Shown here in pieces: positions 4,750-42,038 of a DNA stretch of 44,105 bases. The notes beneath the pieces are model-generated. The model was not told the origin of the DNA, searched no databases, and worked only from the letters and a program-made list of their open reading frames with translations. This DNA is from a virus. Position numbers and translations under genes: made by a program. The DNA lies in the IMG/VR virus record IMGVR_UViG_3300047319_001335, positions 1 to 44,105 of that record. One strand, given 5' to 3'. Within the stretch, counting starts at the first letter, position 1; each line of letters begins with the position of its first letter.

Positions 4750-7700
4750 ATGACCGAAGGCCGCTCTGAACAGGTAGGCGGGATCGCCCTCGGCCTGTCC
4801 CTCGACACCGCTGGCTTCAGCGCCGGCGTCTCGAAGGCCAAGGCCGAGCTGGCGTCTCTCGAAGCGACCCCCGTCCGAATACGGGCCGAGATCGCCGCGC
4901 CCGCTCGCGCGCAGGAGCTCGACGTCCGGGCCAACCTGTCCATCGACCGGGCTGCCATTCAGGGCTTCCGCTCCCAGATCGAAGCGGCGATGAAGGGGCT
5001 CGGCGACGCCGGCCACATCCCGATCCAGATCACCCTCGGGCGGATCAACTACGGCGCCATCCGCTCCGAGATCGCGGCCGGCATCGGTGAGGTCCCGATC
5101 AAGGTCACGGTCGCCGGCGGCGGGAGGGACAGCCCCTCGGCGATCGTCGCGGCCACGGTGGCCGAGAGCAGTGGCGCCAGCAATCAGGACGCCACGACGC
5201 TCGTCAAGAACGCCACCCGCAAGCGTGGCCTCGAGCCCCGGGCGATGGGCGGGCCCGTGCAGCCCGGTGGCCGCTACATCGTCGGGGAGTCCGGGCCCGA
5301 AGAGCTCACGATGCACAACCGGGGTGGCTACGTCCGCCCCATGCACGCCGGCGTCGGTGCGCGCGCCTACCGGGCGACGCAGCTTCAGGGCGGCGGCACG
5401 TTCGGGCCCGGCGGCCAGCCGGAGCGCGGGTACGCCGTAGGCCTCTCGTCGGGATCGCCCAATGTCGTGCCGGCCGGTGACGCCCGGGGCTTCCTGCGTG
5501 CGTACCACTCGGTCCAGCGTCAGGGCGCGCCCTACGTCGGCACGTGGCTCCACGAGGGCGAGATCCACGTCGACCCTGCCGACGTCCTGACTCGGCGTCG
5601 GCAGGCCAACATCCTCGCTGCCCGGAACGCCCAGATCGCCTTCTACGACATCACCCGCGGCGAGGAGATCGGTACTCAGCGCCGGCGCAACGACCCGTCA
5701 CCGGGCCAGATGGGCCTCGGCTTCAGGGCCACCGGTGGCGCAGCGCGCGGGACCCGCGCGTCGGTCGACACGTTCATCGAGAACAAGGTCGTTCGCGCAC
5801 ACGCCGACAAGCTCAGGGAGTGGAAGGACAACCTCCTCGCCCACGCTCAGGGGATCCCCAAGGCGCTCGCTGACTCCGCACGGGACTGGTACCAGATCGC
5901 CCGCGCACAGGCGATGGGCGACCTCGCCGACTTCGGCAAGCAGGGGCTGGGCGACGTCGGGATCGGCGCGTTCGCGGCGGCGAGCCCCGGGCAGCCGTGG
6001 CCCAACAACCGCGCCATCCTGCGCTCGATCCTCGGTCAGGGCACCGCGCCCCACTCCACGGTGCGCCTTGACGTGCCGGGCTTCGGGCCTACGCAGGCGA
6101 CTGCCCCCTACGGGTACGGCAACTGGGCCAAGGCCGCCGAGATCGTCAAGACCGGCAACATCGCGGGGCTGTCGGGCCCCAAGGTCACGCCGTTCTTCGG
6201 CAACCTCTCGGGCAAGGATCCGGATGCGTGGACGCTCGACGCTCGCCAGATGCGGATCGCGTCGAAGAACGAGATCACCAGTGCTCCCGGCGGCGGCTCG
6301 TGGCAGCGCCTCGTGCTCGAGCAAGCCCACGAGGAGGTCTGGCCGGACTTGCAGCGGATGTGGGGCCTCAAGCACCGCAGCGAAGCACAGGCTGTCCTGT
6401 GGGCTGGCTACGGCCGCGGCGAGGACCTCGGCAACGACTGGAAGCGCACCTCCAGCCACATCCTGATCCCGCGCCACCCCGGCATCAGCGTGCCGCTCTC
6501 GCGCGCCGGCGGCGGCTTCACGCACGCCAGCGAGGCGTCGGCCCTCGCCCGGCTTCGCCAGATCACCGACCAAGGCGGCCGGATCCTGCCGGGCTTCACC
6601 GACGAGGCCCAGTCGATCAACCTCCAGATCGAGCAGATGCGGATGGCGAACCGCAACACGTTCGAGTCGCCGTGGGCCCGGCGGATGCGCGAGAGCCGGG
6701 GCGTCGCGAAGGAATTCCGCATGGCCGGCGGCCGCGCCCGCAAGGAGACCCCGTTCTGGCGCCAGACGGTGCGCGACTCCTACGGCCGGCTCATGCCGCG
6801 CGCGTTCTCCCGGGACGAGGGCGACCCCCGGTACCAGCAGTGGGCCCGCGGTCGCGGCCTCGACGAGACCCTCGACTTCCTGAGCATGTCGAACCCGATG
6901 AGCGCCGGCGACCCGGGCGTGTTCCCGGGCGAGGGCATGGGCCCGTTCACGCATCGCATGGCCGGCGGGATCTCGCGCAAGTACGTCGTCCACGACCCCG
7001 ACGGGATCCACGGCCGTCCCTCCCAGTACCTCGCAGGGTTGATGGAGGGCCTCGACGTCCGAGTCTCGGCGATGAACGCCAGCCTCGGCAACGGCCGCTA
7101 CGGCTTCGATGGCGCCGGCAACCAGATCCACGACTGGTACGGCCTGAACGCCCGCAAGGGCCACCGGATCCACGTGGAGGCAGAGGGCGCCGACGCCGAG
7201 CGTGCCCACGCCCGGATCAAGGGCATCCTGAGCTTCGACCCCTACGAGTCGCGTGGCCGCACCTACGACCCGGCGGAGCGGGCGTCGGGTTTCGCCGACT
7301 TCGACCCGGGCATCGGCTCCGAGTACAAGCGCCTGTACCACCGCCTGAACAAGCTGGCGACCGGCGGCTACATCGTCGGCGAGCGCGGGCCGGAGCTGTT
7401 CGTCCCCAAGAGCCTCGAGAGCGTGATCCCGCCCGACGTCATGGCCCGGCTCCCGAAGAAGGCCGACGGCGGCATCGTCGAGATCGGCAAGAAGCCGTTC
7501 AGCTACTTCGCCCCGCCCGAGGATGGCTGGATCATCCCCAACCACCTCCGCAACCGGATCCCGCACGCCGAGGGCGGCGCTGACTTCAGCACCCGCGGCC
7601 CCGGTGGTCGGTTTACGGGCAGCCGGCGCCGACGCCCCCCGTATGGGGTGGCGGCCGGGGAGGAGACGTCTCCTCGTGGGCCAGATCAGTATCCCCGGAG

Positions 7701-10700
7701 TCAGGTCGAGGCCCAGATGGCGGCACAGGCTGCCGCTGAGACCGCCGCGAGCGCGCAAGAGATCCGCCCACGGACGCCCTACGTCCTGCCCAGTGAGATC
7801 CACGCTGCGTCCGACGCGCTGCGCCGCGCCCCCGGCAGCTATGGCTTGACGGGAGGCAGGAGCTCGATCCGGAGCGCGGCCGCCAACATCGGCTCGTTCT
7901 TCCTCGGCAACCGACAGGCAACGGAGCAGGCACGGCTCGAGGCCCAGAGACAGCGCCGGGACCTGACCGGGCTCGAGGGTGAGCAGGGCCGGCTTGAGGG
8001 TGCCCGGTTCCAGTCCGAGGCGCACCTGCACCACCTTCGGGACACGCAGGAGGTCACCCCAGAAGGTCCGGAGTACGACGCCCTCACGAAGCGGGTCGAC
8101 CTTGCCTCGAAGGCGTTCCAGCGCGATACGGACGCAGTCGCGGCAAACGCGAAGCGGATCGAGCACCACACGCAGTTGACGGAGGAGGCCGAGAGGAAGG
8201 CCCAGCCGGGCGGCAGGAACATCGCCCAGAACCTCTTCGGCATCGGGGCGGGTGTCGCTGGGTACCAGATCGCCCAGCAGGGCATTTCGGCCGTTCTCGA
8301 TGCCGCCCTGCCGGCGGCCGAGAAGTGGATCGACATGATGACGGGGTTCCACTCGACGGCGTCCCGGGTCACGACCGACATCGCCAAGCAGACCGAGGCG
8401 CTTCACGGGAACGCTGACGAGGCGCTCGCGAGCGCGGCCGCCACCGCCAACCTGTCGTCGGCGACTCTCGACTACCTGAGCGCGAACCTCAAGACCACCG
8501 TCAGCGTCAAGGCGGGCGCGCAGGCCCAGCAGCAGGCGGAGGACCTGTTCCGAGCAGCCTATGGCGTCCAGCAGGGCAAGCCGCCCGAGGGGCTCTACGG
8601 TGGGTACGGTGGGATCGGCGGTAGTTCCCTCTTCGCGAACCAGTTGGGCGGCGGGCCCGGGTTCACCGAGCAGGTCTACGGCGGCCTCGAGGCGATCCAG
8701 AGCAAGGCCCCGAAGTCGAACCTCTTGGACAATCTCAGCACTGGGCTGACGTTCGCCACCGACACCGGGGTCCGCAATTCGGTCCTGAATGCCCAGAAGG
8801 AGCAGGGCGGCGGGCTCTTGGCGGGCGCCGGCGATGCGCTCGGGCTCCTCGGCGACGCCGCGAACCTCAACGTCGGTGGGTTCACATCCCGGATCACCGG
8901 TCAGGCGAATACCGGGAGCCCGATCGACATCGGCGGCCTCATCGGCGACATCGCAGGGCTCAACTTCGGCGGGATCCAGTCTCGGGTGGCGGCCTCGGCG
9001 GGCCAGCCTGTTGCTGCCGGGCCCTACGACGCGACCGCGGGGCTGTCACCCCAGCAGGTTTCAGCGACCACGGCCCGGATGAAGGAGCTCACCAGCGCCG
9101 CGCAGCGTGGTGCCTCCGCTGTCGCGGACAGCCTGCAAGACGTGACCTACTCGTTCGCGAAGTCGCCGCAGGAGCTCAAGCAGGCCGCCGACGCAGCGGC
9201 TGCCGCGGGGGACCTGCAAGGCTATGCCGGGATCATGCAAACGGGCGTGGTGGCGCGCGTCGGCGGACAGGTGGTCAACGAGAAGCAGTACCAGAAGGTG
9301 GCCGAGCAGACAGCGGTTGGGGCCGGCATCCCGGACATCCAGACGTTGGCGGCCGCGAACGCCCAGCAGCTCCGGGCCCAGCTCGCCACGAACGCGGCCA
9401 ACGTCGCCATCCAGACGGGCGTGCGGGTCCCGGCACAGCTCGGGATGCAGCTCGCTGCGAACCCCCTGATCAACCCGGCAGCCGGTGTCCTGCCGTCACC
9501 CGGATCGGGTGTCTCCTCGGGCTTCTCGTCGGGCGCGAGCTCCGACATCAACAGCTCCCTCGCCCGGGCGAACGAGCTTCAGGGCCAGCTCAACAAGCAG
9601 GCGGACGCCGGGCTCAAGATCGCGCACGACACGGTCGCGGCCAACGGCGGCAACGTGAAGGTCTTCGACGACGCGATGACGTCGGTCAAGGCCTTCGGCA
9701 CGGAGATCGCAGGGCTCCAGACCCAGATCGACTTCACCCAGAGCACGCTCTCGGCGAAGCAGTTCGCCAACCAGATGTTCTTCCTGAACCGCCAGCTCTC
9801 CGACGCGCAGGGGCTGGCCGGTCAGGCCGGCGGGGCGAACAACCTCGGCGCGCTCCAGCGCCAGAGCTTCATGATCGGCCGCGAGCAGCAGTCGCTGGGC
9901 ATGGGCCTCCAGCAGCGCCAGATCACGACGGCCGTGGCCGTCGCGGGCTTCCAAGCTCCCGGCGAGAGCCCCGAGGAGCGGTACGCCCGCCGCGAAGAGG
10001 CGCTGGCGCAGGCGAAGATCCAGCAGCGCCAGCTCAACCTCAACCGCCAGCAATTCGGTGTGCAGGGCCAGATCTTCAACGTGTCGGCGCAGCGCGGTGT
10101 CGGCGACGCCCAGCGTGGGATCGCGATCGCGACGGCCGAGCACGATGCTGCCGGCGTCATCGCCGCGAAGAGCAAGGAGATCGCGGCCGCGCAGGCCAAC
10201 CAAGCTCAGGCGTTCGCGACGGCACAGGCCCAGCTCGACGGTGGGCTCAACAATCTCGGCACGAAGCTCTCGGCGGCCGCCGAGCTCATGGCGCAGGTCC
10301 CGGGCACCACGCTCAGCGCCGCGATGACCGCGATCGACAAGGTGCTCAACGGCAAGGGCGGCATGGCCGACATCGCGCAGCGGTACGAGACGGCCCTCTT
10401 TGCGAGCATCCCGGGCTACACGGCCACTGGTCCAACCCAGCAGCAGCAGGACGCCAAGAAGACCGGCAGCAGCGGGCTCCACGCAGCAGGCTTCCTCGGT
10501 ACGACCCGCGGCGCGATGTCGATGACCGTCGGCGAGGCGGGCTCCGAGACCGTCGCGATCCTGCGGAACCCGCGACAGATGATGATCGGGACGGGCGGCG
10601 GCGGGGGCGGGGGCGTCACGGTCATCGTGACCGGCAACACGTTCTCGGGCCGGGAGGACGAGGCACGTCTGGTGCAGCGGATCACGCGCGCTGTTGAGCA

Positions 10701-10752
10701 GGGTCTCGGTCGCAAGGGCCAGCTCATGGGCCTGCGTGGTCCGGCGCATTGA
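4750..10752 (+). CDS. Tape measure protein with an inserted multi-domain block, including an HPr-like domain
   Basis: 2000 residues; ATG directly after the chaperone stop. Residues 1-130 look like a tape measure N-terminus. Glycine-rich VGE-type motifs mark linkers: RYIVGESGPEEL (about 178), TGGYIVGERGPELFVP (about 874) and MTVGEAGSETVAIL (near the end). Between the first two are modules usual in phage polyvalent proteins: VGTWLHEGEIHVD to IAFYDI (about 263-300) and a DUF7178-like region (ARDWYQIA about 377; LSGPKVTPFFGNLSG ending at D497). Residues about 740-828 resemble HPr (GIHGRPS with His754 and Arg756; KGHRIHVEAEG). The rest is coiled coil and hydrophobic helices, expected for a tail-length ruler. 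Residues 1085-1160 are strongly coiled coil. Confidence 0.93.
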   Translation: MTEGRSEQVGGIALGLSLDTAGFSAGVSKAKAELASLEATPVRIRAEIAAPARAQELDVRANLSIDRAAIQGFRSQIEAAMKGLGDAGHIPIQITLGRINYGAIRSEIAAGIGEVPIKVTVAGGGRDSPSAIVAATVAESSGASNQDATTLVKNATRKRGLEPRAMGGPVQPGGRYIVGESGPEELTMHNRGGYVRPMHAGVGARAYRATQLQGGGTFGPGGQPERGYAVGLSSGSPNVVPAGDARGFLRAYHSVQRQGAPYVGTWLHEGEIHVDPADVLTRRRQANILAARNAQIAFYDITRGEEIGTQRRRNDPSPGQMGLGFRATGGAARGTRASVDTFIENKVVRAHADKLREWKDNLLAHAQGIPKALADSARDWYQIARAQAMGDLADFGKQGLGDVGIGAFAAASPGQPWPNNRAILRSILGQGTAPHSTVRLDVPGFGPTQATAPYGYGNWAKAAEIVKTGNIAGLSGPKVTPFFGNLSGKDPDAWTLDARQMRIASKNEITSAPGGGSWQRLVLEQAHEEVWPDLQRMWGLKHRSEAQAVLWAGYGRGEDLGNDWKRTSSHILIPRHPGISVPLSRAGGGFTHASEASALARLRQITDQGGRILPGFTDEAQSINLQIEQMRMANRNTFESPWARRMRESRGVAKEFRMAGGRARKETPFWRQTVRDSYGRLMPRAFSRDEGDPRYQQWARGRGLDETLDFLSMSNPMSAGDPGVFPGEGMGPFTHRMAGGISRKYVVHDPDGIHGRPSQYLAGLMEGLDVRVSAMNASLGNGRYGFDGAGNQIHDWYGLNARKGHRIHVEAEGADAERAHARIKGILSFDPYESRGRTYDPAERASGFADFDPGIGSEYKRLYHRLNKLATGGYIVGERGPELFVPKSLESVIPPDVMARLPKKADGGIVEIGKKPFSYFAPPEDGWIIPNHLRNRIPHAEGGADFSTRGPGGRFTGSRRRRPPYGVAAGEETSPRGPDQYPRSQVEAQMAAQAAAETAASAQEIRPRTPYVLPSEIHAASDALRRAPGSYGLTGGRSSIRSAAANIGSFFLGNRQATEQARLEAQRQRRDLTGLEGEQGRLEGARFQSEAHLHHLRDTQEVTPEGPEYDALTKRVDLASKAFQRDTDAVAANAKRIEHHTQLTEEAERKAQPGGRNIAQNLFGIGAGVAGYQIAQQGISAVLDAALPAAEKWIDMMTGFHSTASRVTTDIAKQTEALHGNADEALASAAATANLSSATLDYLSANLKTTVSVKAGAQAQQQAEDLFRAAYGVQQGKPPEGLYGGYGGIGGSSLFANQLGGGPGFTEQVYGGLEAIQSKAPKSNLLDNLSTGLTFATDTGVRNSVLNAQKEQGGGLLAGAGDALGLLGDAANLNVGGFTSRITGQANTGSPIDIGGLIGDIAGLNFGGIQSRVAASAGQPVAAGPYDATAGLSPQQVSATTARMKELTSAAQRGASAVADSLQDVTYSFAKSPQELKQAADAAAAAGDLQGYAGIMQTGVVARVGGQVVNEKQYQKVAEQTAVGAGIPDIQTLAAANAQQLRAQLATNAANVAIQTGVRVPAQLGMQLAANPLINPAAGVLPSPGSGVSSGFSSGASSDINSSLARANELQGQLNKQADAGLKIAHDTVAANGGNVKVFDDAMTSVKAFGTEIAGLQTQIDFTQSTLSAKQFANQMFFLNRQLSDAQGLAGQAGGANNLGALQRQSFMIGREQQSLGMGLQQRQITTAVAVAGFQAPGESPEERYARREEALAQAKIQQRQLNLNRQQFGVQGQIFNVSAQRGVGDAQRGIAIATAEHDAAGVIAAKSKEIAAAQANQAQAFATAQAQLDGGLNNLGTKLSAAAELMAQVPGTTLSAAMTAIDKVLNGKGGMADIAQRYETALFASIPGYTATGPTQQQQDAKKTGSSGLHAAGFLGTTRGAMSMTVGEAGSETVAILRNPRQMMIGTGGGGGGGVTVIVTGNTFSGREDEARLVQRITRAVEQGLGRKGQLMGLRGPAH
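6967..7233 (+). other. HPr-like phosphocarrier domain within the tape measure protein
   Basis: Residues about 740-828. The strand SRKYVVHDPD leads to GIHGRPSQYLAGLM, matching the HPr active-site pattern G-[IL]-H-A-R-P-A. A variable loop, then NQIHDWYGLNARKG, aligns with the HPr segment around Ser46 (NLKSIMGVMSLG..KG); the regulatory Ser is not obviously kept. It ends with HRIHVEAEGADAERAHARIK, matching the last strand and helix of HPr. The length of about 88 residues equals free HPr. The catalytic His and Arg are kept, so phosphate transfer is possible but untested. Confidence 0.7.
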
Positions 10753-25308: not shown

Positions 25309-26664
25309 CTACAGCGGGAGGTGTTCCCGTCCCACGATCCAGAACCCTGTCGGCTCGCGCTCGAAGCGCGGATCCTTGCTGAGTCGATCCCGGACGGAGC
25401 CCGGGTTGGCGCTCAGGTTCTCAGCGATGGTCGGGGCCTTCATGCGAGATCCCTGCAACAGCTCGAAGATCTTGTCCCCGAGGTTGGCTTCCTCGGCCGG
25501 GGTCGCCGGCTTCGCCGCTGGGGGCGCCTCGGCGTGGATGGAGGCGACGTCGGCTGGCGCGAATGCTACAGACCCGGGTTGCCATGTCATCTCGAGACCG
25601 AGCGGCGGGTGCTCGGCATCATCGTTGCGCTTGAAGTCGTAGATGGCGAGGCGGAGCCTGCCGTCGATCGGCTCCCCGGGCCGGATCTCCCACGCCGCCC
25701 GGCTGTAGTTGATCTTGTACACACTCCCGTATGGGACGCGGCCCTTCTTGCCGGCCAGCACCAGCTCCTGTTTCGACACGTGATCCACAATCAGTGTGGA
25801 TACCTGCCCGAGGTACCGGATCCCCTCGAAGAGCTTCAGTGCTCCCTCGTTGGCATCGCCGTAGTCGCCCTGATGGCCGATCGCCTGCGCCGCGGAGTCG
25901 ATCACGACGTAGACGATCTTGTGCTCGGCCACGAACGCCGAGAGCTCCTCGGCATCGTCGGCGAGCGGCTTGTTCTGGCGCCGGTAGTAGATCCCCCGCG
26001 GCACCTCGATCTCCATGCCCGCGCAGATCGAGACGATCCGCCGGTTGACCTTCTGGCGGCTGGTCTCCCAGTCGAGGTACAGGACGGGCCCCTTCGCGTG
26101 CTGGGTGGTGCCGGGCAACAGCTCCCGGCCGGCGGCGACCGCGATCGCCAGCGTCAGCGCGATCAGGCTCTTGCCCGAGCCACCGGGCCCGTACAGGAGA
26201 CCCGGCTCGTTCAGCGGGCTGAGGGGCGCCACCGCGTACTGCGGCGCCGACCAGTCGATGGCGTCGTGCCCGATCTCGGTGATCGGGTCGCCCTCGGCCG
26301 AGATCGCCATGATCCTGACCGCGAGCTCGTCGAGCCAGTTGACCCAGTCGACGCGGACCCCGGGTGTCCGGGCGTGGAGCAGCTCCGCCAGCTTGGCCCG
26401 GGCCGGCGCGCTCGTGATGTTCGTGCGGCTGCCGTGCAGGATCCCGTCGACCGTCTTCACGCCCTCGATCCGGCAGCGGACGAGGATGTCGGCCGTGATC
26501 TCGTCCGAGCGTCGCTTCAGCCGGGTGAGCCGGATGGAGGTGGACGCCTCGTCGATCCGCAGGAGGTAGCCGAGCCCCTTGCGCGAGAATTCGGTGCGCT
26601 GGGGCGGCAGCGGCGGCTCCTGCGGTGCCGGAGCCTCGGTCTTGGTGGCTGTTCGCGCCGTCAC
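25309..26664 (-). CDS. RepA-like hexameric DNA helicase / AAA ATPase
   Basis: 451 residues, GTG start overlapping the previous stop. A RecA-fold ATPase: Walker A LLYGPGGSGKSLIAL (Lys165), Walker B KIVYVVIDSAAQA (Asp256), a DWET segment near 198-201 and LIVDHVSKQE farther on. This matches the AAA_25/RepA family of ring helicases used by plasmids and phages. The C-terminal 60 residues form a winged-helix-like part (APTIAENLSANPGSVRDRLS, DPRFE). It lies directly downstream of the primase gene and a small zinc-finger gene, so it is probably the replicative helicase. Confidence 0.8.
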   Translation of the reverse strand: MTARTATKTEAPAPQEPPLPPQRTEFSRKGLGYLLRIDEASTSIRLTRLKRRSDEITADILVRCRIEGVKTVDGILHGSRTNITSAPARAKLAELLHARTPGVRVDWVNWLDELAVRIMAISAEGDPITEIGHDAIDWSAPQYAVAPLSPLNEPGLLYGPGGSGKSLIALTLAIAVAAGRELLPGTTQHAKGPVLYLDWETSRQKVNRRIVSICAGMEIEVPRGIYYRRQNKPLADDAEELSAFVAEHKIVYVVIDSAAQAIGHQGDYGDANEGALKLFEGIRYLGQVSTLIVDHVSKQELVLAGKKGRVPYGSVYKINYSRAAWEIRPGEPIDGRLRLAIYDFKRNDDAEHPPLGLEMTWQPGSVAFAPADVASIHAEAPPAAKPATPAEEANLGDKIFELLQGSRMKAPTIAENLSANPGSVRDRLSKDPRFEREPTGFWIVGREHLPL

Positions 26665-27044
26665 CTCGCAGGCTCGCGCCGGGGCTTTGCGGGTGGCTGG
26701 AGCTGGTGGCGCTTGGTCTTGTTCGACCAGTAGTCGTCGCCGAGCTGGGTCACGCGCAGCTCACGCTGGCGCGCCTTCGTCTTGCGGCGTGCCTTGATCA
26801 TCTCGGCCGCCTCGATCCGTGATCTGACACCCGGGTACGGGCGTCCAACGGCGCGCCCGAATTCGTCGAGCACTAACCGGGAACCGGGGACATCCAGACC
26901 GATCGACTCGCCCTTGGCGTCGACCTCGCGGCCGGTGCGACAGACCACGAACGGGTACCGATCGTCGAGCAGGAGGAAGTCAGGCTGGAGCGGTCGCTCG
27001 CGGCCACAGTGGGTGCAGTACCAACGAACGGCCGGTTCAGTCAT
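26661..27044 (-). CDS. Small zinc-binding, basic protein next to primase and helicase
   Basis: 127 residues. It begins with RWYCTHCGRERPLQP, a CxxC knuckle, with another Cys at FVVCRTGRE, and ends in a very basic tail (KARRKTKARQRELRVTQLGD, then RHQLQPPAKPRREPAR). It overlaps both neighbours by four bases (primase upstream, helicase downstream). It is likely to bind nucleic acid; a helicase-loading or primer-handling role is a guess from position. Confidence 0.6.
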   Translation of the reverse strand: MTEPAVRWYCTHCGRERPLQPDFLLLDDRYPFVVCRTGREVDAKGESIGLDVPGSRLVLDEFGRAVGRPYPGVRSRIEAAEMIKARRKTKARQRELRVTQLGDDYWSNKTKRHQLQPPAKPRREPAR

Positions 27045-28075
27045 GATGCGCGCGTGCGAGACGCCGGCGCGTACTTCGTGAGCTCGAAGGTTCCGCGGCC
27101 ACGGCCGTCGTTGTTCAGGATGCAGCCGGGCCCGTGGCAGATCGCGCGCCGGTCATCGCGGGTAATGGACAGGGAAGGGTGCTGGTCGTCATGAGCCGGG
27201 CACTTCACGGCGATCCCCGGGCGAGCGTTCTGCACGCCCCACAGGTCGCGCAGGATCTCCGACGCAGACGCGTTCTCAAACTCGTCGGGTCCCCGCGGTG
27301 GCTTCGGCCTGTCCATGTCGCGCGGCAGGTGCCGGGGGTCTACGAGTGGGACGTAGTCGGTGGCGATCTCGACGATCTTGGCCCTCGGAGTCGTCAGGAG
27401 ATGGAGGAGGTTCTCGCCCAGCGAGGTCCCTTCCAGCGGGCTGGGGCCCCACGGGTAGACGAGCGAGTACCGCTTGCCCGTCTTCGGGTGCGGCATCGTC
27501 GGCATCCGCAGCGCGTGCCCGAGGGCGCCTTCTGCGAGCTGGTCGGCCCCGGGGCGGAGCTCGACGCGCGCGTCATCGACCCAGCGGCCCGCCTCGGCGT
27601 CGTAGACCCGTGGTACGCCTGCCTTCTCGATGAAGAACCGCATCATCCGGCGGAGGACCTTCGCGGGGACCTGTTCGTCGACTGAGCCCCACAGGTGGGC
27701 GCCCCGCCGGCTCGCCTCGACGTAGCAGTGGATGCCGGCGTCGACCATGAGCGCGCCGATCTTCATCGCCCAGTCGTGGCCGTCGTCGAGGTCGAGGTCG
27801 ATCGCGAACACGTGGCTCACGCCACCGGGCGCGATCAGGTAGCAGGAGACCGACGGGCCCCTCTTCGTCAGGCCGTCGAGGATGACCTGTGGAGTCAGCG
27901 GATCCCGGGCGTAGACGCGCGCGTCACGGGGCCCGCTCCAGCGGCCGGCAGGCTGCCAGCGGGGCTCGTCGCCCTTCAGGATCTTGGGGTCGGTGACCCA
28001 GTGGCTGTACACGTCGGCGCGCGGCGCGAACAGTGCGATGTAATACGAGGCGACCTGCTCCGGGTCGTAGGACAT
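27041..28075 (-). CDS. PrimPol-like (archaeo-eukaryotic type) primase with C-terminal CHC2-like zinc finger
   Basis: 344 residues; ATG after GGAGAGGGAC. The catalytic signature of archaeo-eukaryotic primases is present: HVFAIDLDLDDGHD (Asp93, Asp95) then VEASRRGAHLWGSV (Ser122 to His127), and a later VELRPGADQ strand. Residues 292-318 are a DnaG-style CHC2 finger (CPAHDDQHPSLSI ... ICHGPGC: Cys292, His295, Cys313, Cys318) placed at the C-terminus rather than at the N-terminus as in DnaG. It would make primers for the neighbouring ring helicase. The fold call rests on motifs only. Confidence 0.78.
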   Translation of the reverse strand: MSYDPEQVASYYIALFAPRADVYSHWVTDPKILKGDEPRWQPAGRWSGPRDARVYARDPLTPQVILDGLTKRGPSVSCYLIAPGGVSHVFAIDLDLDDGHDWAMKIGALMVDAGIHCYVEASRRGAHLWGSVDEQVPAKVLRRMMRFFIEKAGVPRVYDAEAGRWVDDARVELRPGADQLAEGALGHALRMPTMPHPKTGKRYSLVYPWGPSPLEGTSLGENLLHLLTTPRAKIVEIATDYVPLVDPRHLPRDMDRPKPPRGPDEFENASASEILRDLWGVQNARPGIAVKCPAHDDQHPSLSITRDDRRAICHGPGCILNNDGRGRGTFELTKYAPASRTRAS

Positions 28076-28326: not shown

Positions 28327-29289
28327 CTAGCCGATGGGCTGGTCCCCAAGCTCCTCTGGCGGTTCCTCGTCGGCTCGTTCATCGGCTCCATCGTCTGGGG
28401 CCTCGCCGCCGGCGTCTGTGTCGGCATCCTTGACCTCGTCGCCCTGATCCCCTGTCTCTTCGGACAGCGTGCGGATCAGGATACCGACCTGCTCGCCCCT
28501 CATGGACTGGACAAAGTTGAGGATCTCGCCCTGCTTGGTCGGATCGACGGTGTCGGTCTTGACCTTGAGGATCCGCTCGATGAACGCCAGCACGTCCGGC
28601 GTCTTCATCTTGGCGGCGGTGAACAGGCGCCACAGCTCCCGGATCTGGACGGGCGTCGGCACGCTGGACTTGCCGCCACGGCTCTGGCCGCGGGTGCTCT
28701 GGCGGCCGCTGACACGCGCCCCCTCGACGGCCTCGCCCTCGGCGGCGCGCTGGTCGACCTTCTCGTCGCCCTCGGGGTCGTCGCCCGTCGACACGAGGAA
28801 GGTCTTGAACAGGAAGTATTTCTCGGCCCCGGTGCAGGCCTTGTAGAAGCCCTTGTCGCCGGTGTCCTGCCCGGTGCCGTACCACTCGGTGACGCCCTCG
28901 GACCACATGTCGCCGGTGTCGCCGTTGACCCACGTGAAGCGGATCTTCACGGTGGTCAGCCAGTTGGTGCCGCCACGCTGGGTCTGGCCTTGCGCCTCGA
29001 CCTTGTAGTCGAGGACGGTCTGGTGCAGGAACAGGTGCTCCCGGGCCATCAGCGGGCGGATCCGCTCGACGAGGTCCGACTCCCGGACGAACGAGTAATT
29101 CTGGGCGCGGTTCCTGCCGAGCTTCGGGACGCTGCCGACCTCGGCGAGCACCGCCACGAGCTTCAGGGTGATGGACTCGGGCGGAGCGACGGCCTTGTCC
29201 CCGATGGGCGGGACCTCGGCTGGCTTCTCCGCAGCCTCTGCTGGCGCCGCAGCGGGCTCCTCAGCGGGCTTGGCGGTTCTAGGTGGCAC
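28327..29289 (-). CDS. ERF-family single-strand annealing protein
   Basis: 320 residues from GTG at 29289 (GAGGAGGGG upstream); the longer open frame enters the nuclease gene. After an Ala/Pro/Glu-rich leader, residues about 35-170 carry the ERF pattern: KLVAVLAEVGSVPKLGRNRA, QNYSFVRESDLVERIRPLMA, then VTEWYGTGQDTGDKGFYKAC, TGAEKYFLFKTFLVSTGDDP. ERF proteins anneal single strands exposed by a phage exonuclease; the partner nuclease is the next gene upstream. The C-terminal third is a helical segment and an acidic tail, possibly for SSB-like contacts. Confidence 0.85.
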   Translation of the reverse strand: MPPRTAKPAEEPAAAPAEAAEKPAEVPPIGDKAVAPPESITLKLVAVLAEVGSVPKLGRNRAQNYSFVRESDLVERIRPLMAREHLFLHQTVLDYKVEAQGQTQRGGTNWLTTVKIRFTWVNGDTGDMWSEGVTEWYGTGQDTGDKGFYKACTGAEKYFLFKTFLVSTGDDPEGDEKVDQRAAEGEAVEGARVSGRQSTRGQSRGGKSSVPTPVQIRELWRLFTAAKMKTPDVLAFIERILKVKTDTVDPTKQGEILNFVQSMRGEQVGILIRTLSEETGDQGDEVKDADTDAGGEAPDDGADERADEEPPEELGDQPIG

Positions 29290-29300
29290 TGGACCCCTCC

Positions 29301-30125
29301 TCAATTGCCGAGATGCTGCTGGAACCGCTGGTACGGCCCACAGATGGCCTGATGCGGGCAGGCGGCGCAGGTGAAGGCACCTGACAGCCCGAGCGGCTCG
29401 AACCGGCCGGCGTCGATGCCCTCGGCCGCCTGCTCGAGCTGCGCTGCGAACCAGTCGACGTCGGTCGCCGACGGCGGGTCGATGTACTCCGGCCAGTAGT
29501 AGGGCTCCTTCGTCCGCACGATGTAGTCGAGGACGAGGAGGTTCGGCATCCGGCCGGCGATCACGTGCTCGACGCCGAGCGCGTAGCCGATCATGTTGAG
29601 CCGGTACTTGCCGGGGCGCGGCCGGCTGTGGGTGACCTTGGTGTCCCGGAGAATGAGCTGGGCGCGCCACGGGTCGAGGTCCTCGGGGTCAGCCAGCGCG
29701 TCGAGGCGGTCGATCGCGCCCGAGTAGCCGATCCCGTTGACCTCGATCTCGAAGGCCTCCTCGACCTTGCTGATCTGAGGCGCCTCGTCGACGGACGCGA
29801 GCACGCGCAGGTAGGTGGTCAGCGCCTTGAGCCCGGACTCCCGGCCGTCCTCGACGGTGCCGTCGTCCTTGGCGAGCTTCACGGGCCCGGCCGCGAGCTC
29901 GATGTCGAACGCCCGGTGGTAGATCCGCTCGACGTCAGGTGTCGGGTCGACGGCGCCCTCGGCGAGGTGCTTGAGGACCTTCTCGATCGCCTCGTGGACC
30001 GCAGCGCCGATCACCTTCTTGAGGCTGGTCTCGCCCCGCTCGGCGAGCACGTAGCTGAAGTACCACTGGAGCGGGCAGTCGAGGTAGACGTTGAGCGAGC
30101 TGGCGGACAGGACGACGTCGGTCAC
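29301..30125 (-). CDS. Cas4/RecB-like PD-(D/E)XK exonuclease with probable Fe-S cluster
   Basis: 274 residues, GTG start. Motifs: SSLNVYLDCPLQWYF (Cys17), IGAAVHEAIEKV (His44), YSGAIDRLDAL (Asp139), LILRDTKVTH (Asp161, Lys163) and the C-terminal CAACPHQAIC (Cys253, Cys256, Cys262). One N-terminal and three C-terminal cysteines are the Fe-S ligand pattern of Cas4/AddB-type nucleases, and the His-Asp-Asp-Lys set is the catalytic core. It would resect double-strand ends to feed the ERF protein encoded 11 bases downstream. No helicase domain is fused. Confidence 0.87.
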   Translation of the reverse strand: MTDVVLSASSLNVYLDCPLQWYFSYVLAERGETSLKKVIGAAVHEAIEKVLKHLAEGAVDPTPDVERIYHRAFDIELAAGPVKLAKDDGTVEDGRESGLKALTTYLRVLASVDEAPQISKVEEAFEIEVNGIGYSGAIDRLDALADPEDLDPWRAQLILRDTKVTHSRPRPGKYRLNMIGYALGVEHVIAGRMPNLLVLDYIVRTKEPYYWPEYIDPPSATDVDWFAAQLEQAAEGIDAGRFEPLGLSGAFTCAACPHQAICGPYQRFQQHLGN

Positions 30126-31802: not shown

Positions 31803-33236
31803 CTACGCCAGCTCGTGCTGCGCGAGCGCGGTCCTGTCGAGCTCGAGCTTGGCGCGGGTGACCGCGACGTACTCCAGTCGGAGGGCCGGCTTGTTCTCGG
31901 TCTTGACCGCGGTGAAGTCCTCGCCGATCTGGACGGTGTCCCACTCCCGGCCCTTGGCCTTGTGGGCGGTCGAGATGATCAGCTCGGCGCTGGCTTCGCT
32001 CGTCATCCGGGCCACCGAGGCGCGGATCTCGGCGGTGCCGAATTCGTCGACGAGCTTGACCATCAGGCGCAGGTCCTCGCCGTCCTCGTCCATCGCCGCG
32101 TAGGCCTGAACGTCCTCCCAGCTTGAGAAGCAGGCGAGGTCGGGATGGCTGGTGTGGCCGCTGGTCTTGAGGTCGTCGACCGCCCGCGCGAAGCGGTCGA
32201 GGTCGTCGCCGCCGCCCATGACGTAGCAGCGGATCCCGTCGTCCTGCGCCCGGAGGAGCCGGCTCATGACGACGGCGTTGGTGCGGGCGAGAACCGCCCG
32301 GGGCCGCTCGATGCGACCGACACGGGAAGTGATCGCCGGATTGCCACGGAGGCGGAGCGGGGCGTCGAGACGGCCGAGCACCTCGTTGGCGACATCGGCG
32401 ACGGCCTGCCCGAAGCGGAAGCTCTGGGTCAGGAACGTGCGGTGCCGGACGTCGACGTTCGCGAGCGCGTTGACCGCGCCCGTCCACGCGTAGATCTCCT
32501 GCTGGGAGTCGCCGACGTAGACGAGCTGGCTGTCGTGCTGGGCGCCGACGATGGCGGCCATGACCGGGTTCGCGTCCTGCGCCTCGTCGAACAGGATGTA
32601 GTCGGCGTTGATGACGGGGTCGTCGAGCTGCCACATCTTGAGGTAGTGCTCGTGCTTGAAGGGCGCCCAGCCCCGGAGCGGGTCGTGCAGGTCCTGCCAG
32701 TACGCCTCGACGAACGGCATGAGCTGCTGGCGGATCGCGTAGTTGTTCACCGGGTACTCGCCGGGCTTGTCGATGCCGTCGATGTACCGGAAGTGGTGAA
32801 GGCCGATCACCTCGTCGGCCGACTGGCAGAAGCCGAGGATCGCCTTGGTGACGACCGACGCGAGGAACGCCGCGGAGAGGTGCTTGGGGTTGCCGGCGAA
32901 GTCGACGACGTCGAGCGGCTTGAGGCCCAGACGCTGGCCGACCTCGCGGCTGGTCATCCTCATGCTGTCGCGCAGCCGGCCCTGAAACTGGTAGCCGACG
33001 GCCCGGAACGCGAGGCTGTGTGCGGTGTTCGCCGCGACCCACGTCGGCAGCTTGCCGCGGGTCTCCTCGACGATGCTCTTGTTGAACGCGACGTACTGGC
33101 CGCGCTCGTCGGGCGCGCTCTGGGCGAGCATCACGAGCGTCGAGGTCTTGCCGGTGCCGGCGCCGGCCTCGACGGCAAGGTTGCCGCCATCGGCGAACAG
33201 GTCGATCGCCTGTTGCTGCTCTTCAGTGGGCTTCAT
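31803..33236 (-). CDS. UvrD/Rep-like superfamily 1 DNA helicase
   Basis: 477 residues, shorter than cellular UvrD (about 700), as usual for phage versions. Q-motif region (TEEQQQAIDLF), Walker A VEAGAGTGKTST (Lys30), Walker B ILFDEAQDANP (217-221), motif III YVGDSQQEIYAWTGA (240-254), motif V ISTAHKAKGREWDTV and motif VI YVAVTRAKLEL are all present. It should move 3' to 5' on DNA to aid recombination or replication. The start overlaps the upstream gene by 14 bases. Confidence 0.92.
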   Translation of the reverse strand: MKPTEEQQQAIDLFADGGNLAVEAGAGTGKTSTLVMLAQSAPDERGQYVAFNKSIVEETRGKLPTWVAANTAHSLAFRAVGYQFQGRLRDSMRMTSREVGQRLGLKPLDVVDFAGNPKHLSAAFLASVVTKAILGFCQSADEVIGLHHFRYIDGIDKPGEYPVNNYAIRQQLMPFVEAYWQDLHDPLRGWAPFKHEHYLKMWQLDDPVINADYILFDEAQDANPVMAAIVGAQHDSQLVYVGDSQQEIYAWTGAVNALANVDVRHRTFLTQSFRFGQAVADVANEVLGRLDAPLRLRGNPAITSRVGRIERPRAVLARTNAVVMSRLLRAQDDGIRCYVMGGGDDLDRFARAVDDLKTSGHTSHPDLACFSSWEDVQAYAAMDEDGEDLRLMVKLVDEFGTAEIRASVARMTSEASAELIISTAHKAKGREWDTVQIGEDFTAVKTENKPALRLEYVAVTRAKLELDRTALAQHELA

Positions 33237-33543: not shown

Positions 33544-33818
33544 GGCTTCTCCGTGTTCAGGCTGCGGGCGTATTCGAGGACGGCCTGTAGCTCGTTCTCC
33601 TCGGCGACCGGGTCGATCTCGAAGTACCGGTGGAGCAGGGCGCTGGGGCCGTCGTGGACCGGGATCAGCCGGTCCTCGCCCCAGACCCTCAGCTTCTGCC
33701 AGCGACCGAGCACAATCCCCTCGGCCGACAGCCAGTCGAGGAACCCGCTGATGACGTGGCTCTGGTCCATGACCCGGGCCCGCTTGTCGAGCGTGGGCGT
33801 CAGGGGCCGCTCAGGCAT
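33540..33818 (-). CDS. Small conserved-type phage protein
   Basis: 92 residues. The segment VISGFLDWLSAEGIVLGRWQ and the ending DPVAEENELQAVLEYARSLN resemble small actinophage proteins of unknown function (FLDWL ... G motif). It is tightly overlapped with its neighbours. Confidence 0.6.
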   Translation of the reverse strand: MPERPLTPTLDKRARVMDQSHVISGFLDWLSAEGIVLGRWQKLRVWGEDRLIPVHDGPSALLHRYFEIDPVAEENELQAVLEYARSLNTEKP

Positions 33819-34104
33819 CGAAGTTGATCCCTAGCCCGGCCACGGCCTCGTCGAACCGACGGAGCGCCCGGCGGTCCAGCGTCTTGAAGTCGCGCTGGGT
33901 CGCGGGCCCGAAGGTGAACCGGGTGATCTGGAATGTCGCGACGGCGCGCGCGAGGAGCTGGACGGCGTTCATGTAGACGCCGTAGGGGGCCTTGAAGTAG
34001 ACGCGGGTGCCCTCGAACGGGCCGCCCTTGGTCCAGATGCGGACCTTGAAGATGCGGGGCTCGTAGACCTCGCGGGGCGTGGGCGAAACCGGCTGTGCGG
34101 TCAT
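33811..34104 (-). CDS. Hypothetical protein, first gene after the internal promoter candidate
   Basis: 97 residues from ATG at 34104 (GGAGG eight bases upstream). RIFKVRIWTKGGPFEGTRVY and LARAVATFQITRFTFGPATQ suggest a small alpha/beta protein. It heads the transcription unit that includes the UvrD-like helicase. Function unknown. Confidence 0.6.
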   Translation of the reverse strand: MTAQPVSPTPREVYEPRIFKVRIWTKGGPFEGTRVYFKAPYGVYMNAVQLLARAVATFQITRFTFGPATQRDFKTLDRRALRRFDEAVAGLGINFDA

Positions 34105-34703: not shown

Positions 34704-35699
34704 CTATTCCTCGTCGTCGTCGATCGCCTGTTCCGGCGGCTCTTCGTCGTCGCTGATGATCGGCTCGGGCATCAGGCCCTGTACGTCGAGGTACGTGGTG
34801 ACCTTGTCGTAGTGACGGCGGATCGCCCGGAGGGTGTCGCGGCCGTGCTGCTGGAGGGTTCGACGCTCGTTCCACATGTCGGCGTCGATGCGGGACCGGA
34901 TCTCGGGCACGATCAGCCCGTTGAGCACCGTCGGCTCGAGAGCATCCAGCTCCCAGCTCTCGAGCCCGAACCGGCGGATGTAGCCGGACGCCCGGCTGTC
35001 GGTGATCTTCGCCGGGTTGGGCGGCGGATCGTACTGGCGGATCTGGTCCATGTTGAGGGCGATCCGCTTGATGGTGAGCTGGCGAACGGAGTAGCCGTCG
35101 CCGGCGAGGAACGTGTACAGGCGGTCGGTGATGTCGCGGGTCATGTCGATCCCGGACGGGTCGTGGTCGCCGAGGTGCAGGATGGTCACCTGCTCGACGC
35201 CCTCGTCGAGGTAGCCCTCGATCCGCCGGGCGGCCGCCCAGAGCTCGGACACGCTCGTGTACCCGCGGCACGAGAAGTACGGGGCCCGGAGACCGCCGGC
35301 CGCCTGCCCGATGACGCCCACGAGGGCGTCCTTCTCGACCCAGACCTCGACGCGCTGCGGCTGGCCCTCCCAGAGCGCCATCGTGTACATGTTCGGGTCG
35401 ATGACGTCGGCCGGGTCGGTCATGTAGCCGTCGCCGCCGCGGATGTTCCGGGTGCGATCGGTGATGTAGTCCCAGTCGAATTCGCCGGCCATTCGCGCGT
35501 CGTTCAGGATCGAGCCGAGACGCTTGTACTCGGTGTCCTTGTTCGCGATCCAGCCCCGGCTGACAAACTGGTAGTAGAGCTGCCGGAGCGTCAGGTCGTA
35601 GCCCTGATCCCGGTAGCTCTCTGCGATGGCGGTGGCCTTCTCGATCACGTCCATGTGGGCGGGCGTGAAGACCTTGGGCGTGTACTCGATGAGCGGCAT
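34704..35699 (-). CDS. Spo11/topoisomerase VI A-subunit-like protein with TOPRIM domain
   Basis: 331 residues from ATG at 35699 (TGATG overlap); an ATG at 35711 is possible. Residues about 36-52 (LTLRQLYYQFVSRGWI) match the winged-helix region that carries the catalytic Tyr in topo VI-A (Tyr42/Tyr43). A TOPRIM domain follows: VEVWVEKDALVGVI (Glu122), YFSCRGYTSVSELW, then ILHLGDHDPSGIDMTRDI (Asp178, Asp180). GYIRRFGLESWELDALEP follows the fold. No B subunit (GHKL ATPase) is visible here, so it may act alone as a nuclease or with a host partner. Confidence 0.75.
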   Translation of the reverse strand: MPLIEYTPKVFTPAHMDVIEKATAIAESYRDQGYDLTLRQLYYQFVSRGWIANKDTEYKRLGSILNDARMAGEFDWDYITDRTRNIRGGDGYMTDPADVIDPNMYTMALWEGQPQRVEVWVEKDALVGVIGQAAGGLRAPYFSCRGYTSVSELWAAARRIEGYLDEGVEQVTILHLGDHDPSGIDMTRDITDRLYTFLAGDGYSVRQLTIKRIALNMDQIRQYDPPPNPAKITDSRASGYIRRFGLESWELDALEPTVLNGLIVPEIRSRIDADMWNERRTLQQHGRDTLRAIRRHYDKVTTYLDVQGLMPEPIISDDEEPPEQAIDDDEE

Positions 35700-35995
35700 C
35701 AGCGACGCCATGCCTCCCACTGGTCGACACGCCCGGCGAGAGCCATCGACAGGTAGTTGGGACACGCGCAACGCGTGCAGGGGCCGACCTCGTTGAGCCA
35801 CATGACGATGCCGGGGACCATGCGCCCAGTGTGGTGCTGCACGATCGTGTGGCCGCATGTCGCGCACGTGTACTGCGGGCCGGGTTGGGACTGGATCCCG
35901 AGCAGTCCGCCGGCCGTCTGGAGGCCGATCGTCATCAGCCACCCGGCAAGCGCCATGAGGCCGACGAACCCGACGATGACGAGGATGGCGTCCAT
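35699..35995 (-). CDS. Membrane protein with zinc-finger-like C-terminus
   Basis: 98 residues. An N-terminal span (ILVIVGFVGLMALAGWLMTI) is followed by a Cys/His segment, YTCATCGHTIVQHHTGRM and GPCTRCACPNYL, likely a zinc ribbon facing the cytoplasm. Both ends share TGATG overlaps with neighbours. Function unknown. Confidence 0.62.
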   Translation of the reverse strand: MDAILVIVGFVGLMALAGWLMTIGLQTAGGLLGIQSQPGPQYTCATCGHTIVQHHTGRMVPGIVMWLNEVGPCTRCACPNYLSMALAGRVDQWEAWRR

Positions 35996-37163: not shown

Positions 37164-37417
37164 GGGGTCCTCCGTGGCTTGGGGTCGAACGCGTCGAGCA
37201 GCTCGTGGACGGGGGCTGCCTTCCCGTGGATCCGGACCGGCTCGAAGTCGACGTCGGTGACCAGACCGCCGACCTCCAGTCGTAGCAGCCGGTCGCGCAG
37301 GTCGTCGGCCTCGGTGTAGGTCAGGTCGAGCTCGAAGCTCTTGGGCCCGGCGACGCCCAGTTTGTCCTGTGGGTCGGCCTTGTCAGTGACCCGAAAGTAG
37401 ATGGCGTGCAGCGTCAT
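37160..37417 (-). CDS. Small hypothetical protein
   Basis: 85 residues from ATG at 37417 behind GGAAGC. MTLHAIYFRVTDKADPQDKL and LDLTYTEADDLRDRLLRLEV look like a small alpha/beta protein. ATGA overlaps on both sides. Function unknown. Confidence 0.55.
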   Translation of the reverse strand: MTLHAIYFRVTDKADPQDKLGVAGPKSFELDLTYTEADDLRDRLLRLEVGGLVTDVDFEPVRIHGKAAPVHELLDAFDPKPRRTP

Positions 37418-37635
37418 GGCTTCCTTTCGGCGCGCCGGGCCATGCCCTGCGCGATCTTCCAGCCGAGCGCCTGCCTGCCCTCGTCGGTCAGGTCGTGGGA
37501 GCGTCGGCGATGGGCGGCGAGGTTGACGAACGAGCGCGGGCAGTCCGCGCACTTCGTGTGGGGCTTGCGGAGGTGAAGGTCGAGCCAGTGCTGCCCGACG
37601 AAGCCGGTGCCGCACAGCGGGCACGCGACCTTCAT
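37414..37635 (-). CDS. Small double C2H2-type zinc finger protein
   Basis: 73 residues. Two adjacent fingers are readable: CPLCGTGFVGQHWLDLHLRK followed by HTKCADCPRSFVNLAAHRRRSH. Each has the CxxC ... HxxxH pattern of classical C2H2 fingers, unusual for a bacterial virus. The C-terminus is a basic helix. It probably binds DNA or a protein; a transcription or anti-host role is possible. Confidence 0.65.
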   Translation of the reverse strand: MKVACPLCGTGFVGQHWLDLHLRKPHTKCADCPRSFVNLAAHRRRSHDLTDEGRQALGWKIAQGMARRAERKP

Positions 37636-39433: not shown

Positions 39434-39721
39434 TCAGGCCTCCTTCGGGACGAGGGGGCAGCCGCGGGTGAAGTGGGCGTTGACGACCCGCTCGCCGTTG
39501 GCGAATTCCTGCTGCCCGAACCGGATGCGCTCGACGATGTCGTCGAGGCTGTCCCGCTGGAAGTGATCGGCGGCCTCGCGACTGGCGCCTGCCACTCCGG
39601 CATCGGTGTGCGCCTTCTCGATCAGCTTCGCGAGGTCGCGGCTGGCGATGAAGGCTTGGAGGTAGACGGACTCCTTGCCGTCCCGGTAGGCCTTGTGGGC
39701 CGGGCTCTTGCAGGTCTTCAT
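39434..39721 (-). CDS. Helical hypothetical protein
   Basis: 95 residues with SVYLQAFIASRDLAKLIEKA and FQRDSLDDIVERIRFGQQEF. Cys near both ends (KTCKSP, RGCPLV). Function unknown. ATGA overlap with the SprT-like gene upstream. Confidence 0.55.
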   Translation of the reverse strand: MKTCKSPAHKAYRDGKESVYLQAFIASRDLAKLIEKAHTDAGVAGASREAADHFQRDSLDDIVERIRFGQQEFANGERVVNAHFTRGCPLVPKEA

Positions 39722-40263
39722 GACTTGGCCTTTCTGGCGCGTCTCTGCGCCGCGGTGAATGAACGGGTCTGGTTGGTGCGGGCCTTGTGGAGGGTGACGG
39801 TGCCCTCGATGACGGCGAGGCGGTACAGCTCGTCCCAGAAGACCTCGTCGTGCCCGTGGCCCTCGGTGCGGGCGTGCGCGATCTCATGGAGCAGGACGCG
39901 GTGCTGGTCGATGGGGTTGGTCCCGGCCTCGACGGTGATGGAGCCGTGCGGCCAGACGTTGCGGTACCGGCCCGAGCTGGTCTCACGCGCCCGGGGATGC
40001 CAGACGACGAGCGGCTGGTAGAGGTGATCGCCGAGGTGCTTCGCGACGAGCCGCTTGGCCCACGCGGGCACCGGGCCCCGCCACTTGCCAGCCTCGACCT
40101 TGCGGGCCCGCTCGCGCTGGATCCGGGCCCGCTCGCGCTCAATGCGCCCGGGGGCGATCTCGTCGACGAGGGCGCGCAGGGCGGTGGAGTTGGTGGACGT
40201 GGTGTTCGACAGGAGCGCGACCGCGGCCCTGAGCAGGCGGTCGCCGTCGGTCTTGGTGGTCAT
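39718..40263 (-). CDS. SprT/WLM-like zinc metallopeptidase
   Basis: 181 residues. The zinc site is HRVLLHEIAHARTEGHGHDE: HEIAH (126-130) with later His136/His138, then VFWDELYRLA. This HExxH ... H pattern is that of SprT-like and WLM proteases. Cellular members (Spartan, Wss1) digest proteins crosslinked to DNA. The Arg-rich N-terminal helix may bind nucleic acid. It is the first gene behind the second promoter candidate and lies in the same operon as the topo VI-A-like protein. Whether it cleaves a protein-DNA crosslink here is inferred from family alone. Confidence 0.72.
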   Translation of the reverse strand: MTTKTDGDRLLRAAVALLSNTTSTNSTALRALVDEIAPGRIERERARIQRERARKVEAGKWRGPVPAWAKRLVAKHLGDHLYQPLVVWHPRARETSSGRYRNVWPHGSITVEAGTNPIDQHRVLLHEIAHARTEGHGHDEVFWDELYRLAVIEGTVTLHKARTNQTRSFTAAQRRARKAKS

Positions 40264-40870: not shown

Positions 40871-41046
40871 CAGCGCGCCTCCTTGAGCTTCGTGGTGGTG
40901 ACGGTGAACAGGGCGACGCGTTCGCCGCAGTCGGCGCACTTGCGGTTCAGGCCGTCACCGGCTGGCTTGGTGCGCGTGACGGGATGCTCGAAGACCAGCG
41001 GCGGATCGTGCCGCCACTGGCCGTGCGTCTTCGTCTCGTAGGGCAT
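40870..41046 (-). CDS. 58-residue zinc-knuckle peptide
   Basis: ATG at 41046 overlaps the upstream stop (TGATG). KCADCGERVALFTVTTTKLK carries a CxxC with few other features. Function unknown. Confidence 0.5.
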   Translation of the reverse strand: MPYETKTHGQWRHDPPLVFEHPVTRTKPAGDGLNRKCADCGERVALFTVTTTKLKEAR

Positions 41047-42038
41047 CAGATCCTTCCTGCACAGATCGGGCCGATGCCCGCTGCGATGCTCTTCTCGTCG
41101 GTCAGGACACGGCCGCAGACGCAGCACATGCCGTAGAGATCCCCGAACGCCTTCGCGTCTTCGAGGGTCAGGCGCTGATCAGGGCGGAGCCGGTTGACGG
41201 CACCGGGCGTGAAGACGAACGTCCCGGGGCGTCCGGGCTCGTCGACGTGGAGCCGCTTGGCGTAGGGGTGGCCGCTGGTCTGGCTGGTCTGGACCTTCCA
41301 GATGACTCCGTCGGCAGTCCGGTAGATGCCGTCCTCGACGCGGCCCACGGGCGCTGGGGCCGGTCGTTGTGGCGCCAGTCGAGGAGCTTCTGGCGTCGCG
41401 GGTCGCGCACTGTGGGCCTCCTTGGTCGTGTACCCTCCCGGCTCCACGGTCGGGTTTGGCATGGCTAGGCTTGGCGTGGTCCGGTCAGGTCGCGTCGGGT
41501 TCGGCGCGGCAGGGCGGGGCAGGGTATGGCGCAGGTACTCCTCGTCCGCGAACAGCTCGCGGGCGAGGGCCTGCTCTTCCACTCGCGCGAGGTCTCGCGC
41601 CTTGCCGGTGAGCAGGGCGTCGACTTGTCGCTCGGTGAGCTTCAGCCACTTCGTGCCCCACGCTTGGCTTGCCTTGATGTCGAGCGGGAGGCCCCACGTG
41701 CCGGTGTAGCCGGACACGTACTGGATCGCCTCGTCGTGGCGGCGCTTCGCCTCGGTGTCGGCCTTGTGACCGGCTTCCTTGGCGTCGAGCACCTTCTGCT
41801 TGGCAGCTTCGGCCTCGGCCTCGCGGGCCTCGCGCTTGCGCTGCATCTCGGCTGCTGCTTCGTGCTGGGCAGCCCATGAGGCCTCCAGCTCAGCCTGTGA
41901 CCATTCCCGGGGCTTGGTGGCGCCGTCAGCCCACGTGTCCGCGATGTGGAGGTAGGCCTGACCGCGGAACGCGAACGGGTAGTCGGGACCAGCCTGCGCG
42001 AGCGGTACCCGCGCCGGCAGTGATGATCGGCGCGCCAT
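41046..42038 (-). CDS. Coiled-coil protein with DUF6011-like C-terminus
   Basis: 330 residues from ATG at 42038. N-terminal helical region rich in Glu/Ala/Lys (AAEMQRKREAREAEAEAAKQ, KVLDAKEAGHKADTEAKRRH) is a coiled coil; a Pro/Ala-rich linker follows, then GDLYGMCCVCGRVLTDEKSI and AAGIGPICAGRI, a pattern I recognise as DUF6011-like (CGR-x-LTD ... GIGP-x-C). The family is widespread in actinophages with no known function. The Cys cluster implies zinc binding. Confidence 0.6.
   Translation of the reverse strand: MARRSSLPARVPLAQAGPDYPFAFRGQAYLHIADTWADGATKPREWSQAELEASWAAQHEAAAEMQRKREAREAEAEAAKQKVLDAKEAGHKADTEAKRRHDEAIQYVSGYTGTWGLPLDIKASQAWGTKWLKLTERQVDALLTGKARDLARVEEQALARELFADEEYLRHTLPRPAAPNPTRPDRTTPSLAMPNPTVEPGGYTTKEAHSARPATPEAPRLAPQRPAPAPVGRVEDGIYRTADGVIWKVQTSQTSGHPYAKRLHVDEPGRPGTFVFTPGAVNRLRPDQRLTLEDAKAFGDLYGMCCVCGRVLTDEKSIAAGIGPICAGRI

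Follow-up and report, generated by a model that had tools for sequence, protein, structure and literature searches.

The minus-strand gene at 34704-35699 encodes a stand-alone, 331-residue homologue of Spo11 and of the DNA-cutting subunit A of topoisomerase VI (topo VI-A), with a complete active site and without a partner subunit in the records searched. It lies in an IMG/VR virus record of 44,105 bases with 68% G+C, the whole of which is referred to as the window. Judged by its sequence, the protein is a Mini-A, and the gene adds one member to a family that is already known. We consider it fairly probable that Mini-A is an enzyme of phage DNA metabolism which works as a dimer and independently of a B subunit, cleaves and reseals DNA through a tyrosine link, and serves phage replication or recombination. 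The map of residues R39, Y43, E122, D178, D180 and E250, together with the missing latch (i.e., an N-terminal segment present in topo VI-A), makes the role of a lone phage Spo11 directly testable. If this widespread phage family, with its complete topo VI-A/Spo11 active site, cuts DNA alone, it would offer a natural and minimal system in which to model SPO11 chemistry.

An earlier reading of the window, made without database searches (the sequence-only reading), had placed a gene at these positions, and the gene is real. Its reading frame runs from an ATG at 35699 to a stop at 34704, has the top coding score when compared with the overlapping ORFs, and is preceded by a Shine-Dalgarno-like sequence. 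The ATG overlaps the stop of the small gene upstream (35699-35995, minus strand), and translational coupling of the two is possible.

The PHROG family phrog_6247, annotated as DNA topoisomerase, matches residues 5-302 of the protein with an E-value of 6e-97. In Pfam the protein matches no family, and TP6A_N is weakly matched by 4 of 36 Mini-A members; searching the PDB by sequence with the protein and its profile yielded no relevant match. Relatives were found by tblastn in 74 annotated phage records and 42 plasmid records, and further ones lie on at least 202 IMG/VR contigs and in 180 stretches of bacterial and archaeal genome contigs, prophages included. Among them is the homologue in Pseudomonas phage NP1, which tblastn aligned at 40.6% identity over 87% of the query and which shares 118 of 293 aligned residues (40%) with the window protein. 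Given that NP1 is the Mini-A example drawn in Fig. 4 of PMC7614492, the family is not new. It was described by Takahashi et al. 2020 as a type IIB topoisomerase-like family, and reviews treat it as an ancient homologue of topo VI-A and Spo11 in viruses (PMC11302465) and, for archaeal members, as uncharacterised and encoded by mobile elements (PMC8185306). No functional study of Mini-A was found in the literature searched.

The window protein has the features of this family, i.e., a chain of about 300 residues that joins a winged-helix tyrosine to a TOPRIM domain and has no fused B part. The median length of Mini-A proteins is 302 residues, with the catalytic tyrosine at about residue 43, and no convincing domain fusion was found among 172 homologues, the collection holding a single ORF of 406 residues. 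One IMG/VR homologue has an in-frame stop or a frameshift after 112 residues, beyond which the similarity runs on.

All the motifs named in the sequence-only reading are present in the protein. The winged-helix segment holds R39-Q-L-Y-Y43 (35571-35585, minus strand), the TOPRIM domain opens with Glu122 (35334-35336, minus strand), a general acid and metal-site residue, and continues to D178-H179-D180 within GDHDPSG (35160-35168, minus strand), and Glu250 stands in a WELDAL motif (34950-34952, minus strand). Across 171 Mini-A homologues, Y43, E122, D178 and D180 are identical in every protein, whereas R39 and E250 are each kept in 170, with Q in place of E250 in the remaining one. The sole change of R39 is a proline in Roseobacter phage RDJL Phi 1, which may be a sequence error because the match is broken into two pieces. 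Such family-wide identity shows that the motifs are not due to chance. Both tyrosines of the pair at 42 and 43 had been put forward as candidates for the link to DNA; only Tyr43 is invariant, while Tyr42 is replaced by F, W or T in 8 of the 171, so Tyr43 is the expected nucleophile. These counts also bear on the view that Mini-A is a structural or DNA-binding protein without catalytic activity, as might be read from the label "DNA binding protein" on three Microbacterium and one Curtobacterium phage records. We consider this very improbable, since a non-enzymatic role would not maintain four invariant core catalytic residues in 171 proteins that diverge to about 27% identity.

For comparison, 14 topo VI-A proteins were aligned; they were taken from one bacterial genome and from genomes of the phylum to which an archaeal MAG with a Mini-A gene belongs. 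With hhalign, the Mini-A profile scored 33.3 (local) and 29.3 (global) against this set, while 44 unrelated families encoded at the Mini-A loci, used as controls, reached at most 21.6 and 10.4, respectively. The hhalign probability ranged from 18 to 57%, which reflects weak direct sequence similarity, and the identity between the two families is about 18% when their profiles are aligned. Hhalign places Tyr43 on the tyrosine of the topo VI-A RExYY motif, Glu122 on the TOPRIM glutamate, and D178/D180 on the acidic residues of D-x-D-P-Y/W-G. In a joint MAFFT alignment, Glu250 falls on the glutamate of the topo VI-A motif KxE(L/Q)(E/Q)AL in 14 of 14 proteins. Glu122 is shifted in that joint alignment, so that it is assigned from hhalign and from its location where the TOPRIM fold begins. 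The arginine, the tyrosine, the TOPRIM glutamate, the DxD and the E(L/Q)xAL motif of topo VI-A are thus all aligned with Mini-A.

Methanosarcina mazei Top6A uses R102, Y106, E202, D254, D256 and E342, and its cleavage is restrained by a clasp between R102 and E342 (PMC13040014). These six residues align with Arg39, Tyr43, Glu122, Asp178, Asp180 and Glu250 of Mini-A. Glu250 is, by position, probably the counterpart of E342, and Arg39 and Glu250 are predicted to be the clasp arginine and its partner.

The structural comparison agrees with the alignments. The AlphaFold2 model, built from a 36-sequence alignment, has a mean pLDDT of 88.3 and a pTM of 0.79. When it was compared with the PDB by Foldseek, the sole match below an E-value of 0.001 was topo VI subunit A of M. 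jannaschii (1d3y_B), with an E-value of 7.3e-5, a probability of 1.00 and 323 alignment columns. The TM-scores are modest (0.42/0.47) and the rmsd is high (9.4), as would be expected if the two domains are differently set. A fold search of the BFVD returned a single weakly aligned fragment. Mini-A has the same fold as topo VI-A, with a winged helix followed by a TOPRIM domain, and the winged-helix tyrosine is in place; the model is thus not that of a generic TOPRIM nuclease only. Structure, profile alignment and family-wide invariance concur in the homology to topo VI-A and Spo11 that the sequence-only reading had suggested.

What Mini-A lacks in relation to topo VI is the B subunit, as well as about 50-60 N-terminal residues that include the latch. 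The topo VI holoenzyme is an A2B2 assembly in which B contributes a GHKL ATPase and a transducer, and most members of topo VIII carry A and B fused into a single chain; Mini-A, at 331 residues in the window, has no GHKL part. The domain search found no GHKL or topo VI-B domain anywhere in the window, as the sequence-only reading had stated, and the absence extends to the family: none of 54 Mini-A records contained the transducer PF09239 and none of 44 the GHKL family PF13589, many of these records being fragments, while both searches gave matches in control genomes. A partner may be encoded by the host. A dedicated partner gene was sought by all-against-all clustering of neighbours at 86 loci, where no non-self family exceeded 14 loci and the largest clusters were a SNF2-type helicase and HTH regulators; nor did any recurrent neighbour emerge from PHROG and Pfam counts of 150 immediate neighbours.

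In Top6A, the latch comprises residues 44-67, ahead of Y106, and altering it abrogates supercoil relaxation (PMC13040014). The catalytic tyrosine stands at a median position of 43 in Mini-A versus 92-127 in the 14 topo VI-A proteins, which means the latch-bearing N-terminal segment is missing and the latch would fall almost wholly outside Mini-A. In the joint alignment, Mini-A is also without about 14 residues (14 columns, a helix) before the clasp glutamate. An enzyme that has neither ATPase partner nor latch is unlikely to carry out ATP-driven strand passage.

These findings weigh on the proposal that Mini-A is a true topoisomerase, which would relax or decatenate phage DNA either alone, through ATP-independent cleavage and religation, or with a host GHKL subunit. 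The name of phrog_6247 and of many records points that way, some topo VIII enzymes work without ATP (PMC7614492), and the retention of the cleavage and religation residues along with a restraining clasp suggests reversible cutting. However, no B or GHKL subunit was found in the records searched, no recurrent neighbour could replace it, and the segment required for relaxation by topo VI is missing. We therefore regard a true topoisomerase as unlikely.

The favoured reading, a B-independent cleaving and resealing enzyme, draws its biological setting from the gene neighbourhood. In the window, the Mini-A gene run, all on the minus strand, includes a UvrD-like (SF1) helicase (31803-33236), a PD-(D/E)XK exonuclease (29301-30125; PF12705, E-value 3e-20), an ERF single-strand annealing protein (28327-29289; PF04404, 8e-9; phrog_155, 7e-26), an archaeo-eukaryotic primase-like protein (27041-28075; PF22548, 2e-9) and an AAA_25 (RepA-like) ATPase (25309-26664; PF13481, 2e-21). 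The closest relative, G001, has a 64% identical Mini-A and keeps the primase, ERF, exonuclease and several small genes, among them the counterpart of the small gene at 33811-34104 (minus strand), which is 42% identical and lies directly 3' of Mini-A there. In NP1, the gene is found in the early DNA region beside a ligase, Sak4, a Cas4-like exonuclease and a helicase, and in Microbacterium phage Fizzles it lies directly 3' of a Cas4-family exonuclease gene. The NP1 protein has the same six active-site residues and is likewise stand-alone and phage-encoded; the window phage differs in having an ERF annealing protein where NP1 has Sak4, and its Mini-A in having an acidic C-terminal tail that is absent from most homologues. 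Across 58 non-redundant viral loci, 92% of the immediate neighbours are on the same strand, and they are varied early DNA genes, such as helicases, SSB, RecE/YqaJ, resolvase and polymerase. Two further genes of the window were noted, a small C2H2 zinc finger protein in the early gene run (37414-37635, minus strand; PF00096, 5e-7) and a DUF6011 protein (41046-42038, minus strand; PF19474, 3e-15) with a counterpart in G001.

Enrichment of recombination genes was assessed against 32 random viral contigs of similar size, picked by 14/15-mers. ERF was present in 8 of 44 Mini-A records versus 5 of 32 controls, while RecT (7/44 versus 2/32) and PD-(D/E)XK (9/44 versus 3/32) were commoner in Mini-A records, not significantly so. 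Any of the three occurred in 21 of 44 versus 9 of 32 (Fisher, p = 0.10), i.e., without significant enrichment. A recombination role is thus compatible with the context, but it is not shown by it.

The location among phage early DNA genes also argues against an offensive or defensive nuclease that would cut the DNA of the host, of plasmids or of competing phages, similarly to JetD of Wadjet or GajA of Gabija. These more distant TOPRIM relatives serve as endonucleases (PMC13040014) and, like Mini-A, belong to phage-related systems in which a TOPRIM domain acts on DNA; the scatter of Mini-A over phages, plasmids and prophages would also suit such a function. Yet JetD and GajA cleave with the TOPRIM domain and without a catalytic tyrosine, whereas the winged-helix Tyr43 is invariant in Mini-A (171 of 171), a residue for which a plain TOPRIM hydrolase would have no use, and no SMC or ATPase partner gene of their kind recurs beside it. 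We regard this alternative as decidedly improbable.

Dimerisation, chemistry and resealing are what we infer for Mini-A from topo VI and Spo11, and its role in replication or recombination from the position of its gene. In this reading, Mini-A is a stand-alone topo VI-A/Spo11 relative that a tailed phage encodes among its early DNA-metabolism genes. It would act as a pair of subunits, with each hybrid active site built from the winged-helix Tyr43 of one and the metal site (Glu122, Asp178 and Asp180) of the other. Such sites would cleave DNA and leave a 5'-phosphotyrosyl link, probably followed by resealing, with the Arg39-Glu250 clasp keeping cleavage in check. The likeliest use would be a controlled cut of phage DNA (a double-strand break or a nick) that feeds replication or recombination. 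In vitro, mouse SPO11 makes double-strand breaks unaided and stays on the 5' ends; it must dimerise to form its hybrid active sites and is able to reseal nicks (PMC11922746). Since Mini-A has this active site too, and lacks a partner, it most likely performs the same chemistry.

Spo11 resembles Mini-A as a lone cleaving subunit, the mouse protein cutting without partners (PMC11922746), but it makes the breaks from which meiotic recombination starts, and does so together with accessory proteins and a B-like partner, none of that kind having been found for Mini-A. A bolder version of the favoured reading, possible but rather doubtful, is that Mini-A is the phage counterpart of Spo11, a self-sufficient maker of programmed tyrosine-linked breaks that start recombination-dependent replication. 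If true, it would show that recombination started by the breaks of a topo VI-A module evolved outside the meiosis of eukaryotes.

The sequence-only reading had also assigned an SprT-like protease to the operon and suggested that it could remove protein-DNA links made by Mini-A. The product of the gene concerned (39718-40263, minus strand) does carry an HEIAHA motif, but it has no match in Pfam and is weakly similar to proabylysin, a small zinc metallopeptidase (E-value 0.013); HExxH metallopeptidase is the safer label. The SprT family PF10263 exceeded the cut-off in 0 of 44 Mini-A records, the window included, and the protease was not found in the syntenic relative G001. Coupling to an SprT-like protease was consequently rejected, and we do not count the gene among the parts of the system.

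Plasmids of Streptomyces and Kitasatospora commonly carry a divergent Mini-A-like branch, 25-31% identical, which accounts for 35 of the 42 plasmid records. The two proteins of this branch that were examined retain R39, Y43, E122, D178 and D180; in one of them, from pNO33, the E250 clasp position is occupied by Q, the change that makes Top6A prone to cleavage. A 15.2-kb plasmid of Paenibacillus durus (NZ_CP009289.1), a small circular element, carries a 47% identical Mini-A and also encodes a Zot-domain protein, which suggests a filamentous-phage-like genome.

Elsewhere in the window, a tape-measure-like gene of 2000 codons (4750-10752) contains a stretch at 6970-7230 (plus strand; residues about 741-827) that matches the PTS HPr phosphocarrier family (PF00381, E-value 1.5e-8; NPr structure 5t17, 5e-4), and an HPr-like domain within a tape measure protein is unusual.
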